A DNA stretch of 47,425 nucleotides, from positions 1-47,425 of IMG/VR virus record IMGVR_UViG_3300007352_000007. One strand, written 5' to 3'. The DNA comes from a virus. Positions 16,092 to 47,425 of the stretch are shown piece by piece; the first letter of the stretch is position 1, and each line of letters starts with the position of its first letter. Below the pieces are notes generated by a model. That model saw only the letters and a program-made list of their open reading frames with translations. It made no database searches and was not told the origin of the DNA. Made by a program: the position numbers and the translations under genes.

Positions 16092-16414
16092 CGGTATTAA
16101 CAAAGGAGTTTTTTGAATTAAGAGGAAGAGTAGAAAAATTAGAAAGGAAAGTATACGATCTAGAAAATCCAATAAGGTACACTGACCAGAACATCGGTAT
16201 AAGAGGCAATGAAATATATTTTAATGGGAACGTCTTGGCGTTGAAACCACACCCCGAAATGGTAAACGCAATAAGGTATAAAGAAAATGACAAGGTTGAA
16301 AATGCGGAAGTTTCAGGTAATGATATTATTGTTACGATGAAAAGCGGGGACGTATTTCGAGTTATAAATTATTATAATACAAAAAATATCAAAGTGGAGA
16401 GGGAAACCGTATGA
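16070..16414 (+). CDS. Hypothetical protein, 114 aa
   Basis: Overlaps the dehydrogenase by 22 bases. The N-terminal coiled coil (TKEFFELRGRVEKLERKVYDL) is followed by beta-rich sequence. It looks like a trimerising coiled coil with a small beta domain. Function unknown. Confidence 0.6.
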   Translation: MSSKYELAVLTKEFFELRGRVEKLERKVYDLENPIRYTDQNIGIRGNEIYFNGNVLALKPHPEMVNAIRYKENDKVENAEVSGNDIIVTMKSGDVFRVINYYNTKNIKVERETV

Positions 16415-17322
16415 GTTGTATTCTCTGCGGGTCCACTGATTATGAAGTCATATGGGATAAGATAGAACGAGAGAAGAAGGGGATATTAAGGAGTGTGGTT
16501 ATCCGTGATAACCTTGGTAACATTCTTAACGGCACTAATGTTATTTGCCGTGGTTGTGGTCTCATATATGTTGTTAATAGAATGGATAGACAGGAACTCA
16601 TAGACTTTTACGAGAACGATTACAGGAACATATACGGCAAGGCTACGAGTTTTAATGCAAGCATACATCTGCACGCAAGGCACGCTTTGGAATGTATGAA
16701 AGACGTTGGCGTGAAACGTGGTGCGAAAGTGCTTGATATCGGATGTGCGGTAGGGACATTTCTGGAGGGTTGCAAAGAGTATGACGCTTTTGGTATAGAA
16801 CCTAATAAGAAAACCTACGAGATAGCAAGAGAGAATAATTTAGATGTAGCCAATACGACAATAGAGGAATTTAATCCTGCATCCAAGTATGACCTGATAA
16901 GTCTGCAAAATACTCTTGAACATTTGTATGATCCCATAAGCGTGATACAAAAAGCAAGAAATATATTGACAGATGACGGACTTTTGTTGATATCCGTACC
17001 CAATGTATTAACTTGTGTGCATTGGTTGGCGGTAGATGCTTTCATGTCCTGCGCTCATTTGTTCGCTTTTTCACAATTAACACTTGTCCAACTAATGTTA
17101 AAGTGCGGATTCAGGGAACACGCAACCTATACTTACTTTGAGAGCATGGGTGAGAAGCTATATTGTTTCTTTAAAAAGTGTGAACCGCAGACACCACAGT
17201 TCATAAAGCCCGATGTTGAGAAATACAAGAGATTTTTAAGCGCGTGGGACGATACAGCAATGGCAAACTACGACATAAAATACCGATTTGATGGACTGAA
17301 ATCCCCATTAATAAATTTGTGA
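16411..17322 (+). CDS. SAM-dependent methyltransferase with N-terminal zinc-binding domain, 303 aa
   Basis: The N-terminus carries CILCGS and CRGCG cysteine pairs (zinc). Then comes a class I SAM motif, AKVLDIGCAVGTFLEG, with an acidic residue in FGIEPNKK, and the later motif LISLQNTLEHLYDP. This order is that of sugar C-methyltransferases of the NovU/TylC3 type and related Methyltransf_13-containing enzymes, which act on nucleotide or polymer sugars. In context it might decorate the nonulosonic acid or its acceptor glycan. Confidence 0.78.
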   Translation: MSCILCGSTDYEVIWDKIEREKKGILRSVVIRDNLGNILNGTNVICRGCGLIYVVNRMDRQELIDFYENDYRNIYGKATSFNASIHLHARHALECMKDVGVKRGAKVLDIGCAVGTFLEGCKEYDAFGIEPNKKTYEIARENNLDVANTTIEEFNPASKYDLISLQNTLEHLYDPISVIQKARNILTDDGLLLISVPNVLTCVHWLAVDAFMSCAHLFAFSQLTLVQLMLKCGFREHATYTYFESMGEKLYCFFKKCEPQTPQFIKPDVEKYKRFLSAWDDTAMANYDIKYRFDGLKSPLINL

Positions 17323-40514: not shown

Positions 40515-41057
40515 CTACTTTAATATATTCTCTATCCCCTTCATATCCAGTCCTATCACCTTAAACACTAACCCTGTATGCGGTATGGTAACTTCCCTAT
40601 CTGTTATTATCAGCACTCTCGGCTTGCACCCAAATATCGGTATAAAGTCCATGGTGTACTTGTCAAAATCGAACTTGTTATTAAGATGTATCTCCACTAT
40701 CACAGGGAATACTATTTCATGATCTCTGATGTAGCATAGGGCATCCGGTCTGATATGCTCGAAGGTGTATTCGTTATGCCATTCCAAAACGTCAAATTTG
40801 GCACTTAAATGCGTATATATTTCTGTTCTAATCAGATCGTGATGAATTTGTACCGGCTTTTTTCCTATGTAATACGCATGACAATTATTGATCGTGCTGA
40901 CCGTCTTTTTTATCAAGCCATCCCTTACCAACTTAGCAAGCCGTGTCATACAGTAACGGTACGAATGAGGGTAAAATAATCTTTGTAACTGACCTGATGT
41001 TACAATGTGAAAATCCTCTATGAAGTTTAATATACTCTGATCCTTCTCGGTAATCAT
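40515..41057 (-). CDS. Replication-relaxation (Replic_Relax) family protein, 180 aa
   Basis: ATG at 41057 chosen because it makes an ATGA overlap with the FtsK-like gene (an in-frame ATG at 41081 is also possible). Residues about 1-70 are a winged helix (LNFIEDFHIVTSGQLQRLFY, then TRLAKLVRDGLIKKT). The rest is an alpha-beta fold with VIVEIHLNNKFDFDKYTMDF, the pattern of the PF13814 family. Those proteins accompany FtsK-like coupling ATPases on conjugative plasmids and ICEs and are proposed to act in plasmid replication or mobilisation. Confidence 0.7.
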   Translation of the reverse strand: MITEKDQSILNFIEDFHIVTSGQLQRLFYPHSYRYCMTRLAKLVRDGLIKKTVSTINNCHAYYIGKKPVQIHHDLIRTEIYTHLSAKFDVLEWHNEYTFEHIRPDALCYIRDHEIVFPVIVEIHLNNKFDFDKYTMDFIPIFGCKPRVLIITDREVTIPHTGLVFKVIGLDMKGIENILK

Positions 41058-42283
41058 TTTTCCACATACGGGTTGATACATTTTGCCCTTAACTCCTTCA
41101 TCTTTTCTATTCTCTCCTGCTTGATTTCTTCCGCAGTCCTAAAGGCATCCTGTTTCTTCAACAACTTCCGTATCTTTGACGATTCAATGTAGTTTAACTG
41201 GAACTCTTTCAACTCACCGCAGTACTTGACAAGGAACCGTCCAGGATTCTTAATTTCCTCCGCACCTGGCATATCGAGTATGACTTCGCTATCAACTTGA
41301 CTGACTGTTTTCCCTGCTATTCTGACCGGCATATTGGCTTTGATACTTCCTGCTATGATCTTCACATCCGGCCTTTGCATGGCACATATGAAATGTATAC
41401 CTACCTTCCTTGACATACTTATCATGGTGCGAAACTTCTCCATCAAGTACTCATAATTTGATTCAGCCAGTCGGGAAAATTCGTCAATGATAACTACCTT
41501 ATACGGCATAGGGGTGAACCTTTTATTCCATGCCTCCAAGCTATCAATATAAACCTTGTTCTTTACGCTGCGGAATAATTTAAGACGGCGTTCATTTTCT
41601 GCTGATAAGTCTTGCATGAGCATTTCAAAGTCTTTCGGGGTTTCGCCATAAGACTTGACCTTTCGGCAATCCTCATACTTGCCGAGGCCGACCGCCTGAA
41701 AGTCTATTAAGTGTAAGTCCACGTTATACTCACCAAGTAACAGGGATAACACTATGGTATCAAGCAAGGAGGACTTCCCTGATCCCGTTTCCCCTGCGAT
41801 TATCACATGGGGACAATCAGTAATGTCAAGAAAGAATTTCCCTTCCCGTGACTGACCTATCAGGATGTTCAGTTGTTTAGATTCACTTAATAACTCAAAC
41901 GAATAATCATATTTCAAGTTATTGTCCAAAAGTTTAATAACCAATTCCTTATTAAAGGAAAACTCGATTTTCTTATTTATGGCTTGCTCGATTTCCTGCT
42001 GATGCCTTTCAAAGTCTTTCTGACATATCCCATTAGGCATATGTACTATAAGGTTATTGCCCTGCTTGCGTATAACAAGAGGTATCTGTTTCGCCTTATT
42101 CTCCAATCCACACATTCTAAACACCTTCTCATACTTGCTCTCATGGTTAATAACCTCTAAGGCTAATCCTCTACCAACAATCCACCACGGGGAGAGGGGT
42201 AAAGCCATCCCCACCGAGGTAAGCACCGAACCACAGGCGAGTGCTGCCCCAGCCAACCCCAAACCCAAACCAACCCACTTCAT
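41054..42283 (-). CDS. FtsK/TcpA-like DNA-translocating ATPase, 409 aa
   Basis: ATG at 42283 follows GGGGGTGTGGTG. N-terminal hydrophobic segments (LGLGLAGAALACGSVLTSVG) anchor it in the membrane. Walker A is GETGSGKSS at 164-172 and Walker B is KVVIIDEFSRL. The C-terminal RecA-like fold has ICAMQRPDVKI. The layout is that of TcpA/Orf21-type coupling proteins of Gram-positive plasmids and ICEs rather than cell-division FtsK. It could move the circular prophage DNA or couple it to a transfer channel; no other conjugation genes are here. Confidence 0.8.
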   Translation of the reverse strand: MKWVGLGLGLAGAALACGSVLTSVGMALPLSPWWIVGRGLALEVINHESKYEKVFRMCGLENKAKQIPLVIRKQGNNLIVHMPNGICQKDFERHQQEIEQAINKKIEFSFNKELVIKLLDNNLKYDYSFELLSESKQLNILIGQSREGKFFLDITDCPHVIIAGETGSGKSSLLDTIVLSLLLGEYNVDLHLIDFQAVGLGKYEDCRKVKSYGETPKDFEMLMQDLSAENERRLKLFRSVKNKVYIDSLEAWNKRFTPMPYKVVIIDEFSRLAESNYEYLMEKFRTMISMSRKVGIHFICAMQRPDVKIIAGSIKANMPVRIAGKTVSQVDSEVILDMPGAEEIKNPGRFLVKYCGELKEFQLNYIESSKIRKLLKKQDAFRTAEEIKQERIEKMKELRAKCINPYVEK

Positions 42284-42366
42284 CACCACACCCCCATTAA
42301 CTTGCTTTTTATAAAACCTTATAAAATAACATATTTAAAGCCGTATAGCCAATCAGTAATATGACT

Positions 42367-42389
42367 ATACTTTGAACCATACTTTGAAC
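42367..42389 (-). repeat. Two 11-bp direct repeats beside parR
   Basis: ATACTTTGAAC occurs at 42367-42377 and 42379-42389, 12 bp apart, at the 3' end of the ParR-like gene in the 105-base gap before the FtsK-like gene. It may be part of a regulatory or centromere-like array, but two copies are few. Confidence 0.4.
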
Positions 42390-42544
42390 TAGAAATTGAA
42401 TATATCCTTCTTTTCTTTCTTCTTCTCCATGTCGGCCTTGATTAATTCCTTTATATATGCACTCGCGCAGAACTTTGTTTTGACATGATCATATAACTCT
42501 TTGTCTTTTTTTCGTCTAAACGATACAGGTATTCTTAACTCCAC
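42389..42544 (-). CDS. parR: ParR-like ribbon-helix-helix protein, 51 aa
   Basis: Too short for usual ORF calling. GTG start at 42544 lies 10 bases inside the ParM-like gene. ELRIPVSFRRKKDKELYDHV is a beta strand plus helix of an RHH fold, followed by ASAYIKELIKADM and a lysine-rich C-terminus ending DIFNF. Small RHH proteins directly downstream of ParM-type actins are the centromere-binding partner. Its tail probably contacts the actin, as in ParR. Assignment by order and fold. Confidence 0.65.
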   Translation of the reverse strand: MELRIPVSFRRKKDKELYDHVKTKFCASAYIKELIKADMEKKKEKKDIFNF

Positions 42545-43386
42545 AGCGATCGCCCCACCTTCTCAAATCCGTAAGCATTGGCAAATATTGAATCAGGTAT
42601 CAACACAGCTTGCGGAATCTTGGCTTTAATAGCCTGAAATAATAGCTGACCGCCACCACCAATGACTAGGACATTGTGTGTCCGTATGGGATATTCCACC
42701 CGTAGCTGACTGACGAGGGTATCAATGTACGACTTGAATATGCCCTTGTCTACATCTTGTTTCTCCCCGTCAATCGTCAAGCCGTGTTGCAATATCCTTC
42801 CTGCATCCTCTGGACGTAAATCAAGCCCCGTGCTGTTGAGCGACTTGATAAAGTCATGGTAAAGGTTTAGCGTTCCCATCGGCAAGGAGAATGAATTACC
42901 CACCTTGATTCTATCCCCCATTTCCACCTCCGCAATATCCGTTGTGCGACCGCCAATGTCAATGACAATGCCGGAGAAGTCAGAGCCGATTACCGCCGCA
43001 AATCCTTCGGGATATACCGCCACATCATCAATGATGACCTTGCGAGGGACATTGTTGATTGATACATGGTTTACTTTGGTGCTTATTAGAGTTGAACGGA
43101 GAGCGTCTTTGTCAAGTTTATACTGTGACAGGGGTAAACCCACCACCACTTTCACAGGTTCATCGGTACTTTTGGCTACCGCATACAAAAACAAGGTACG
43201 CAATCCCCTTTTGCTGACCTTCCTGTACTCCGTGTCATATGTACCCTCACCGATGTACCATAGTCCTTCATCTGTTGCAATCATTTCAGACCTCAACAGT
43301 CCTGCTATCCGCGAACATTTTGACTCAAATATGTACCCTTTTGATGTTTTTGTCATACAGTTTCCGATGTCTATGCCTAGAATCAT
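42535..43386 (-). CDS. parM: ParM/Alp-type plasmid segregation actin, 283 aa
   Basis: ATG at 43386 has GAGGTG upstream. Phosphate 1 motif GIDIGNCMTKT, phosphate 2 motif GIVIDIGGRTTDI and adenosine motif LVIGGGGQLL are present in actin/ParM order. Family: ATP-driven filaments that push plasmid copies apart, and AlpC of corynephage CGP3 that moves phage DNA. Length is shorter than R1 ParM (320) but similar to clostridial Alps. It is followed by the ParR-like gene and preceded by ATATTCGG sites. Confidence 0.85.
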   Translation of the reverse strand: MILGIDIGNCMTKTSKGYIFESKCSRIAGLLRSEMIATDEGLWYIGEGTYDTEYRKVSKRGLRTLFLYAVAKSTDEPVKVVVGLPLSQYKLDKDALRSTLISTKVNHVSINNVPRKVIIDDVAVYPEGFAAVIGSDFSGIVIDIGGRTTDIAEVEMGDRIKVGNSFSLPMGTLNLYHDFIKSLNSTGLDLRPEDAGRILQHGLTIDGEKQDVDKGIFKSYIDTLVSQLRVEYPIRTHNVLVIGGGGQLLFQAIKAKIPQAVLIPDSIFANAYGFEKVGRSLWS

Positions 43387-43484
43387 ATTCAATTTCACCT
43401 CTATATAATCGTTTATAATCTAATATATTCGGATAAAGCCTAAATGTTTACACTTTTATCGAATATACTGAAATTTTAAAGGAA

Positions 43485-43823: not shown

Positions 43824-43964
43824 ATGAAAAGGAAAGAAATTGAAACCGAAATCAATATACTTATGACAAAGTTATCGGATAAGAATATTGAGAGGTTACT
43901 GGCCTCTGCCAAGGGATTGATCAAGAATCAGAAAAACTTACAAACTTCTAACAAAATGGCTTGA
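43824..43964 (+). CDS. Small helical protein, 46 aa
   Basis: After CGGAGGCCCGAAT, which also contains the fourth iteron. KEIETEINILMTKLSDKNIERL resembles the short helical C-terminal segment of phage repressors (LTESEKKLIIEF) and could be a repressor-interacting peptide. Unproven. Confidence 0.55.
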   Translation: MKRKEIETEINILMTKLSDKNIERLLASAKGLIKNQKNLQTSNKMA

Positions 43965-43986
43965 AAGTCACTATTCATTGAGAGAT

Positions 43987-44039
43987 GCGCTTGAATGGCA
44001 TTCAAGAGGTAAGGGGTTCGATCCCCCTCATCTCCACCA
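43987..44039 (+). other. attP: attP core: 3' part of a tRNA-Ala(GGC) gene
   Basis: Bases read as the anticodon arm (CTTGAATGGCATTCAAG, anticodon GGC), the T arm (AGGGGTTCGATCCCCCT) and the acceptor end CTCC-ACCA of a tRNA-Ala. No D arm or 5' acceptor half is present, so it is not a functional tRNA. Together with the adjacent integrase it is the expected attP; integration would rebuild the host tRNA. Confidence 0.85.
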
Positions 44040-44097: not shown

Positions 44098-44177
44098 AAA
44101 TTATCAATAGGGTATTTATAATAAATCATAGGAAGTCGATTAAACTTGTTTCTACTTCTAACAAACTTCTAACAAAT

Positions 44178-45194
44178 TCATATTTGGGATATGGCTTTTT
44201 TAAGACCTTCAATATCAGTATGGGTATAGGTGTCTGCCGTGAACGAATATTTCGTATGTCCGAGGATCCTCTGGATAGAAAATGTATCGGCTCCGGCCTT
44301 TGCCATTAAGGAAGCAAATGTATGACGGCAACAATGAGGATTGAGTTTCCGTATACCAAGTCTTTCAAGTCCCGGGTAGTAGTATTTCGCTCTATATGCT
44401 TTATCGGTAATGGCTTGTCCCTTGTCGTTGCAGATAAGATAATTACCGCCGTAATTGTACCACTTCCGCACATATTCGATTATTTTCGGGTGGATAGGTA
44501 TTATACGTCCCTTCCCGGCCTCTGTCTTATTGCCTCCAATAATGTACTGTTCATCAAGGTGGACATCGAATCGGGTGATCCCCAGGAATTCATTTATCCT
44601 CATGCCAAGATGTATCAGCATCAGGATCGTATCGGTCCAGCATTTGTCATTGTCAAACATCTTCTTGATTTCAGGGTCGGTAAAGGCCTGCTTTTCTTCT
44701 TTTATGGATTTCGGCAGCCTCACGAAAGAGGCGTAATTCTTATTTATGATATCATTCTGCATGGCGTATTCGCATAACATATAAGCCACCACTTTTATTT
44801 TTTCAAGCGATGACCGGCTCATATTTTTATTGCTGTCGATTATGGATTGGTAGTGATTGGTCCGCAGTATCTGATATAGGGTCCCGGCATATTTTGAAAG
44901 ATGTTTCCACCCTGCCCGATAACAATCTGCGGTTTGTCTCGAGATGTATTCGTATTTAGAATCGGACCATTCCTTGTAAAGTTCTCCGAGCGTTATATTT
45001 TCTTTGGGGATCGGATTTGATTTGTATTCAACTAATTTTTGCAGGGCTATTTCGCTTGACTTATAATAGCCTATGGTCTTATAAAGCTGACGCCCATTCT
45101 GTGAGCAGCCTATCGGGCATCTGGCGATCCATGGGTTGCGACGTGTTCCCTTCAGCTTGTAAACAGTTCCAAATCCATTTGGTAGCCGAATAAT
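44178..45194 (-). CDS. int: Tyrosine integrase, probable ATT start, 338 aa
   Basis: The frame is open from just after the repressor stop. The N-terminal AP2-like arm-binding domain (RLPNGFGTVYKLKGTRRNPW) and SAM-like core-binding domain (ENITLGELYKEWSD) are complete. The catalytic domain has Arg (LGMRINEF), Lys (KTEAGKGR), HxxR (HCCRHTFA), His (LGHTKYS) and Tyr (TADTYTHTD). No ATG, GTG or TTG precedes RLPNG. The best start is ATT at 45194, 6 bases after GGGGAG. The first downstream ATG (44822) would delete both DNA-binding domains. It would integrate at the tRNA-Ala attP nearby. Confidence 0.88.
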   Translation of the reverse strand: MIRLPNGFGTVYKLKGTRRNPWIARCPIGCSQNGRQLYKTIGYYKSSEIALQKLVEYKSNPIPKENITLGELYKEWSDSKYEYISRQTADCYRAGWKHLSKYAGTLYQILRTNHYQSIIDSNKNMSRSSLEKIKVVAYMLCEYAMQNDIINKNYASFVRLPKSIKEEKQAFTDPEIKKMFDNDKCWTDTILMLIHLGMRINEFLGITRFDVHLDEQYIIGGNKTEAGKGRIIPIHPKIIEYVRKWYNYGGNYLICNDKGQAITDKAYRAKYYYPGLERLGIRKLNPHCCRHTFASLMAKAGADTFSIQRILGHTKYSFTADTYTHTDIEGLKKAISQI

Positions 45195-45197
45195 GTA

Positions 45198-45557
45198 TCA
45201 CTCCCCGACATTTTTTATAAATTGCGTAATGATCGCCCTTTGGCTATCGCTTAATCTTATAAATTCGATAATGAGCTTCTTTTCAGATTCGGTAAGTTTG
45301 TCAATTTTTTCTGATACAAGTTCCAATAATCGAAGGTCAGACTTGTCGAACATTTCTCCCGTACCGTTCACAAGCCATTCTTCACTGACATTGAAAGACC
45401 CGCAGATCAATTTTATATTCCGCTTGTCTATGGTGACCGTCTTACCGTTCTCAATGTCCGAAAGGGACGGTTGAGTAACGCCTATTTTATCAGCGAATTC
45501 AACCTGGCTTATTTTAAGATGCTTTCTTAATTGATGAATTCTTTTGTTTATGCTCAT
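45198..45557 (-). CDS. CI-like phage repressor, 119 aa
   Basis: XRE helix-turn-helix at residues 5-60: LRKHLKISQVEFADKIGVTQPSLSDIENGKT. The C-terminal part (EEWLVNGTGEMF, then LTESEKKLIIEFIRLSDSQ) is short, with no LexA-type Ser/Lys protease; the antirepressor at 46045 may inactivate it. It is divergent from the rightward early genes across an operator region. Its TGA stop is in frame with the integrase. Confidence 0.88.
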   Translation of the reverse strand: MSINKRIHQLRKHLKISQVEFADKIGVTQPSLSDIENGKTVTIDKRNIKLICGSFNVSEEWLVNGTGEMFDKSDLRLLELVSEKIDKLTESEKKLIIEFIRLSDSQRAIITQFIKNVGE

Positions 45558-46945: not shown

Positions 46946-47425
46946 AGGCTTACAAAGGGTACAAGAAAGGCTTAACGTGTCAAGGGTTTCAATATGCAGA
47001 AGGAGAGACATACGAGCAGGCAGAGAAACCATCCTGCTGTGATCATGGTTTCCACTTCTGCGACAATCCGCTTGACGTACTTGATTACTACGATTTATGC
47101 GACAGCGATTTTACCGAAGTTGAGGTTTTAGGCGATGTAGACAGACAAGTGGATGGTGACAGCAAGGGTGCAACTAACAAAATTAAGATTGGCGCAAAAA
47201 TGGACTTGAAAGGGTTTATTAAGACGAGTTTTGATTTTTTGTGGGAGAGTTGCAAAAAGAAAGACAAGTCTGACGCGTCACAGCTTGCATCCTCTGGCGA
47301 CAGGTCACAGCTTGCATCCTCTGGCGACAGGTCAAAGCTTGCATCCTCTGGCGACAGGTCACAGCTTGCATCCTCTGGCTATGGGTCAAAGCTTGCATCC
47401 TCTGGCGACAGGTCACAGCTTGCAT
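46942..47425 (+). CDS. DUF7666-like protein with 9-residue repeats (5' part, continues at base 1)
   Basis: Start after GGGAGGGTGTT. Residues 1-60 resemble the DUF7666 family (MKAYKGYKKGLTCQGFQYAE, then GFHFCDNPLDVLDYY). From about residue 113 a repeat of nine residues (SQLASSGDR or SKLASSGDR) runs to the window end and continues from base 3. Family members are common in Clostridia phages; function unknown. The number of repeats is not fixed by this sequence. Confidence 0.8.
   Translation, partial: MKAYKGYKKGLTCQGFQYAEGETYEQAEKPSCCDHGFHFCDNPLDVLDYYDLCDSDFTEVEVLGDVDRQVDGDSKGATNKIKIGAKMDLKGFIKTSFDFLWESCKKKDKSDASQLASSGDRSQLASSGDRSKLASSGDRSQLASSGYGSKLASSGDRSQLA
47278..47425 (+). repeat. 27-bp in-frame tandem repeat at the window edge
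   Basis: Five full 27-bp units plus a partial one, each starting TCACAGCTTGCATCC or TCAAAGCTTGCATCC. The 36-base overlap with bases 1-36 (also ending in this repeat) shows circular joining inside the array. It is coding in one frame and has no unique spacers. Confidence 0.92.

Follow-up and report, generated by a model that had tools for sequence, protein, structure and literature searches.

A phage integrase frame lacking ATG, GTG and TTG starts, probably translated from AUU next to the repressor stop codon

The window analysed here is the whole of IMG/VR virus record IMGVR_UViG_3300007352_000007, 47,425 bases, in which a CI-like repressor and a tyrosine integrase occupy one reading frame, separated by a single TGA, and the integrase N-terminus is preceded by no ATG, GTG or TTG. 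The best explanation, and in our judgement a likely one, is that weak initiation at an AUU codon, coupled to the repressor stop, would keep integrase low. The frame itself, the missing canonical codons, the position of the Shine-Dalgarno (SD) sequence, the homology of the start position and the recurrence of such codons in relatives are all direct observations.

The repressor (45557-45198, minus strand; 119 codons; Pfam HTH_3, E=5.8e-14, plus HTH_19; PHROG transcriptional regulators) opens with ATG and ends GTC GGG GAG TGA, with its stop at 45200-45198. As a preliminary description of this DNA had reported, the same frame then runs on through TAC (45197-45195), ATT (45194-45192) and ATT (45191-45189) to CGG CTA CCA AAT GGA. 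The integrase frame comprises 339 codons from TGA to TGA (45197-44178, minus strand) and is intact up to the closing TGA at 44180-44178. It matches PF00589 (E=4e-21) and phrog_1 integrase (E=7.5e-50), and R198, K222, H286, R289, H312 and Y322 (A1 numbering), which we take to be the catalytic R, K, H, R, H/W and Y residues of a tyrosine recombinase, are invariant in a 12-row family alignment and all present in the window protein. By profile and catalytic residues alike, the predicted product is a tyrosine recombinase, or phage integrase. The first in-frame ATG, GTG or TTG of the window integrase is an ATG at 44822, codon 126, which bears out the earlier statement that none lies ahead of the conserved RLPNG.

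An imperfect extended SD, GGGGAGTGAT (45206-45197, minus strand), spans the last codons and the stop of the repressor, and it is predicted to pair with the 16S tail at -12.1 kcal/mol, where the family median is -11.7 kcal/mol. Measured from GGGGAG (45206-45201), the first ATT lies 6 nt on and the second 9 nt on; in SD register the spacing to the second ATT is 9 by GTGAT. From the repressor stop it is 3 nt to the first ATT and 6 nt to the second. Thus the window has no usable ATG, GTG or TTG before the integrase N-terminus and has an SD at normal distance from an ATT, while the pair also has the geometry of translational coupling, with the SD in the upstream gene and the stop a few nucleotides before the next start.

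Comparison with relatives, drawn from viral contigs, genomes and phage records, points to the second ATT as the most likely start. Their N-terminus is mostly short and well conserved (M-[RK]-x-P-N-G-x-G), and their ATG aligns with the second ATT, as in MKLPNGFGTVYKL of L035 and MKNPNGYG of L002 against IRLPNGFGTVYKL in the window. The preliminary description had considered an ATT start spaced 6 bases from GGGGAG and had called for a comparison with related prophages. That comparison places the ATG of relatives exactly at the second ATT and finds ATT, ATC or ATA there in several of them, so that the idea of an ATT start holds, whereas the homologous codon is the one at 9 nt and the first ATT becomes the alternative. 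The family mode is 7-9 nt, which covers 76 of the 121 SD-bearing canonical starts among the matches listed. The closest relative among these matches is about 57% identical to the window integrase, too distant to speak to conservation of the window's own junction. In a 55%-identical relative (L037, 1465-1515), an ATG-started MRNPNGYG lies one frame off the rest of the integrase; the break, right after the motif, looks like a frameshift or an assembly error.

We surveyed the homologous start codon in distinct family members that have the N-terminal motif and at least 300 codons of uninterrupted frame. The set holds 160 distinct N-termini among the matches listed: 123, and 37 new ones from a pattern scan in which any third base was allowed at the start, so that only ATN codons were visible there. 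Another scan took M or I at the start, which favours ATG and ATH. Loci without the motif or with frames below 300 codons were left out before counting; these included L006, which has ATT but a broken 3′ part, L037, frameshifted close to the start, and L030, with in-frame stops. Five short frames were likewise left out of the ATN-pattern scan. The L006/L118 locus, from a Dethiobacter MAG, is an integrase fragment (L006, 2986-3681) that has lost its 3′ part; its N-terminus lacks ATG, GTG and TTG, and an ATT preceded by GGGGG occupies the start position.

Among the matches listed, ATG, GTG or TTG stands at the homologous codon in 136 of the 160 members, and eight, the window included, have ATT, ATC or ATA (AUH) there with no canonical codon backed by an SD at 4-12 nt. 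These are the window, L080, L122, L125 and L156 with ATT, L040 and L092 with ATC, and L036 with ATA. By source, AUH members make up 4/61 from the scan free of start-letter bias (among the matches listed), 2/9 from whole-genome searches, 1/45 from the M-or-I scan, where L156 is the only one of the eight to originate, and 0/37 of the new members from the ATN-pattern scan (among the matches listed). Counted as a whole, the ATN-pattern scan gave 2/71 among the matches listed, a lower rate, and both were already in the bias-free scan. As a control we used SSB, whose N-terminus is equally fixed: all 41 distinct genes among the matches listed were canonical, 39 at the first scored position and 2 at the next, with one of 80 loci lacking the motif. 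Set against 8/160 in the integrases, 0/41 in the less diverse SSB set is not strong evidence, and this comparison alone proves little. Such non-canonical starts are generally rare, and it is on this rarity that a claim of AUH enrichment rests.

The SD lies 7-9 nt from the start in seven of the eight AUH members, the exception being L092 with a weak SD at 12 nt. Three of them, the window, L156 and L092, are without any ATG, GTG or TTG; the start region of L156 reads AGAAAGGAAGTGTTATT-ATT-AGA-CTA-CCA. The other five (L040, L036, L080, L122 and L125) carry an ATG or GTG exactly three codons upstream that belongs to or touches the SD itself (GGAGGTG or AAGGAGATG), for example GGAGGTGATTACA-ATT in L122 and AAGGAGATGATTAAA-ATC in L040. 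SD pairing should be unable to serve an upstream codon so placed, which might nevertheless be used SD-free, and the AUH starts of these five are therefore less certain. Gene callers would probably pick the upstream codon in each of them. L169 has ACG at the homologous codon, again with an ATG near its SD.

On a maximum-likelihood tree of 123 members, built by a quick method, the eight AUH members are scattered, requiring 8 state changes of which at least 6 are forced by starred branches; shuffled labels average 7.8 changes, so AUH members do not cluster. Several have close neighbours with canonical codons: L039 and L043 (79% identical to L040, both ATG), L084 (75% identical to L080, GTG), L083 and L129 (70% identical to L092, TTG and ATG) and L155 (63% identical to L156, ATG). 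L036 and L122, both ATH, share a small unresolved group with L011 and L116, and these two may therefore not be independent. Nine members combine a non-canonical codon with the absence of any canonical start backed by an SD, and in eight of these the first two positions are still AT (p = 0.008 under random single changes of ATG, with transitions weighted twofold). Their SDs are also modestly stronger, with a median of -13.55 kcal/mol in AUH members against -11.7 kcal/mol in 99 canonical ones (Mann-Whitney p = 0.03). Both patterns would be expected if the codons still initiate, although with eight cases the statistics are modest.

Downstream of the integrase, 43978-44039 (plus strand) holds the last 62 nt, CCA included, of a tRNA-Ala(GGC) gene. 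This stretch agrees with host genome locus L417, called tRNA-Ala(ggc) by ARAGORN, at 62 of 65 aligned positions, and is the probable attP core. A reading of the fragment as a tmRNA end was ruled out by this identification. Rfam gave no match on the whole window. Three exact copies of CTTCTAACAAA flank the core (43945-43955, 44155-44165 and 44166-44176, plus strand) and are the window's only matches on either strand with up to one mismatch. They are probable integrase arm sites, a count of three being also reached in 18 of 100 shuffles.

Tandem repeats (AGCTTGCATCCTCTGGCGACAGGTCAC...) at the right end of the record (47250-47425) resume at its left end (1-40) with a 36-nt identical overlap, and the genome is probably circular or circularly permuted, the record having its break inside the repeat. 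The shared repeat at the ends, together with phage genes on both sides of the core, indicates that the sequenced form had an uninterrupted attP and was not an integrated copy. Minus-strand genes nearby encode a ParM-like actin partition protein (42535-43398; PF17989, phrog_691), an FtsK/SpoIIIE-like ATPase (41054-42289) and a weak Replic_Relax match (40515-41081), which together make 40515-43398 a plasmid-like module adjoining the integrase of a tRNA-targeting temperate phage. Elsewhere on the plus strand, a PAPS-reductase-domain protein (PF01507, 4377-5219) and a methyltransferase-like protein (16411-17322) are possible accessory genes.

Other accounts of the junction were weighed against AUU initiation, and two of them, recent start loss and a one-base assembly error, would give an identical sequence. 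The most serious, though we think it unlikely, is loss of the integrase start codon, with no protein made and the gene a defective one caught soon after mutation. The homologous codon is one base from ATG, and the L006/L118 fragment combines ATT at this position with a broken 3′ part. Yet the window frame is intact, and start loss would often leave ACG, AAG, AGG or CTG where in fact AT is so regularly kept; the SDs, too, are retained and rather stronger. The uninterrupted attP amid phage genes argues against a decayed integrated copy, although a lytically grown phage would look alike. A sequencing or assembly error concealing an ATG, for instance at 45191-45189, is less probable still. The junction is known from a single IMG/VR record, with no second copy in the collections searched, but other, independently assembled relatives have ATT, ATC or ATA at the same codon. 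The exact junction 18-mer had four matches in viral contigs, but at none of these sites was there an integrase homologue; a 20-mer from the start of the integrase had no match in the collection searched, nor did the repressor-integrase pair by blastn against phages or an 8.6-kb segment by megablast. The collections searched in these last three ways hold no near sibling of the window phage, and the repressor as query recovered distant relatives only.

Readthrough of the UGA to give a repressor-integrase fusion, the other option in the preliminary description, is very improbable. Although only a single TGA parts the two frames, which are in register, the relatives have their own starts at this point, and no fused HTH was found in the six relatives scanned whose frames extend further upstream. 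The RNA of the junction folds no better than shuffled sequences (z = 0.36). TGA closes 23 of the 45 window ORFs of at least 140 aa and is their commonest stop, which argues that it is not reassigned; reading it as tryptophan yields one open frame, and nothing supports such a reassignment. We give the least credence of all, next to none, to starts at other canonical codons. GTG overlapping an upstream stop is a feature of many coupled genes and does occur here (GAGTGA), but this GTG lies out of the integrase frame, does not encode the integrase N-terminus in its own frame and would need a frameshift. Initiation at the internal ATG 44822 would cost the integrase its first 125 codons, and that codon is without an SD (predicted anti-SD duplex -1.3 kcal/mol against -12.1 kcal/mol upstream of the ATT). 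Initiation at AUU, as favoured here, agrees instead with the homology of the start position, the SD spacing and the independent relatives with ATT, ATC or ATA at the same codon. The link between integrase and repressor translation suggested earlier is plausible by ordinary stop-start coupling, given an SD inside the last repressor codons and a nearby stop.

AUH initiation has precedents. According to PMC13009471, AUU or AUA starts with an extended SD have been demonstrated for S. aureus infC, cvfC1, ccpN and citZ, with AUU/AUA reporters reaching roughly 10% of the AUG level in poor medium, and ccpN as much as 30% in rich medium. Like the window, these cases come from a Firmicute and have AUU or AUA picked by a long SD at normal spacing; unlike it, they are host genes, several of them conserved across species in the same account. 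The window start belongs to a phage integrase, varies between close relatives and follows directly on a repressor stop. PMC5472188 describes the ATT start of E. coli infC, with IF3 autoregulation, and the GTC start of Streptomyces sigR, systems in which output is held low by a non-canonical start that IF3 represses. We infer a similar output and IF3 response for the window, which differs in having no feedback loop. In a temperate Firmicutes phage, Streptococcus thermophilus phage TP-J34, an AUU start was predicted for orf28 (terS region), and its authors excluded a sequencing error (PMC3952083); orf28 is a single case and is not an integrase. For termination-reinitiation, PMC2268962 describes pairs in which the start lies within a few nucleotides of the upstream stop, as in the window, and in which IF3 overexpression lowers re-initiation; its reporters re-start at AUG, where the window would do so at AUU. 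Among papers outside subscription we found no report of an AUH-started integrase.

We propose that the integrase is a separate translation product that begins at an AUU codon, most probably the second ATT, chosen through the SD GGGGAGUGAU. With the SD in the last repressor codons and the stop 6 nt before this codon, the geometry is that of termination-reinitiation, and ribosomes ending the repressor at UGA could re-start there. Repressor and integrase, two lysogeny proteins, would come from one message, while an inefficient codon disfavoured by initiation factor IF3 would cap integrase output. A small, repressor-linked supply of integrase appears the most likely outcome. Initiation at AUU, coupling, low output and sensitivity to IF3 are the parts of this scheme that we infer. 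An AUU-started integrase, with recurrent AUH starts in its relatives, would bring weak initiation of a type already described to a phage recombinase, where its regulatory meaning is putative.

A wider proposal, which we put forward tentatively and think rather doubtful, is that selection has repeatedly favoured AUU, AUC and AUA starts as a device in this integrase family, tied in the window phage to repressor translation so as to ration integration. Lineages would swap AUG for a weak near-cognate codon while keeping or lengthening the SD, which would keep integrase in short supply and make it respond to IF3 and to growth state. Common gene callers take only ATG, GTG and TTG, and AUH integrases would consequently be annotated short, wrongly extended or missed. 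Gene calling confined to these codons is given as a limit in PMC5472188. If these AUH starts are real, some eight of them, natural and of independent origin, would stand beside AUG relatives within a single family of phage genes, a convenient place to ask when weak initiation is favoured by selection and whether IF3 has a say in the lysogeny decision.
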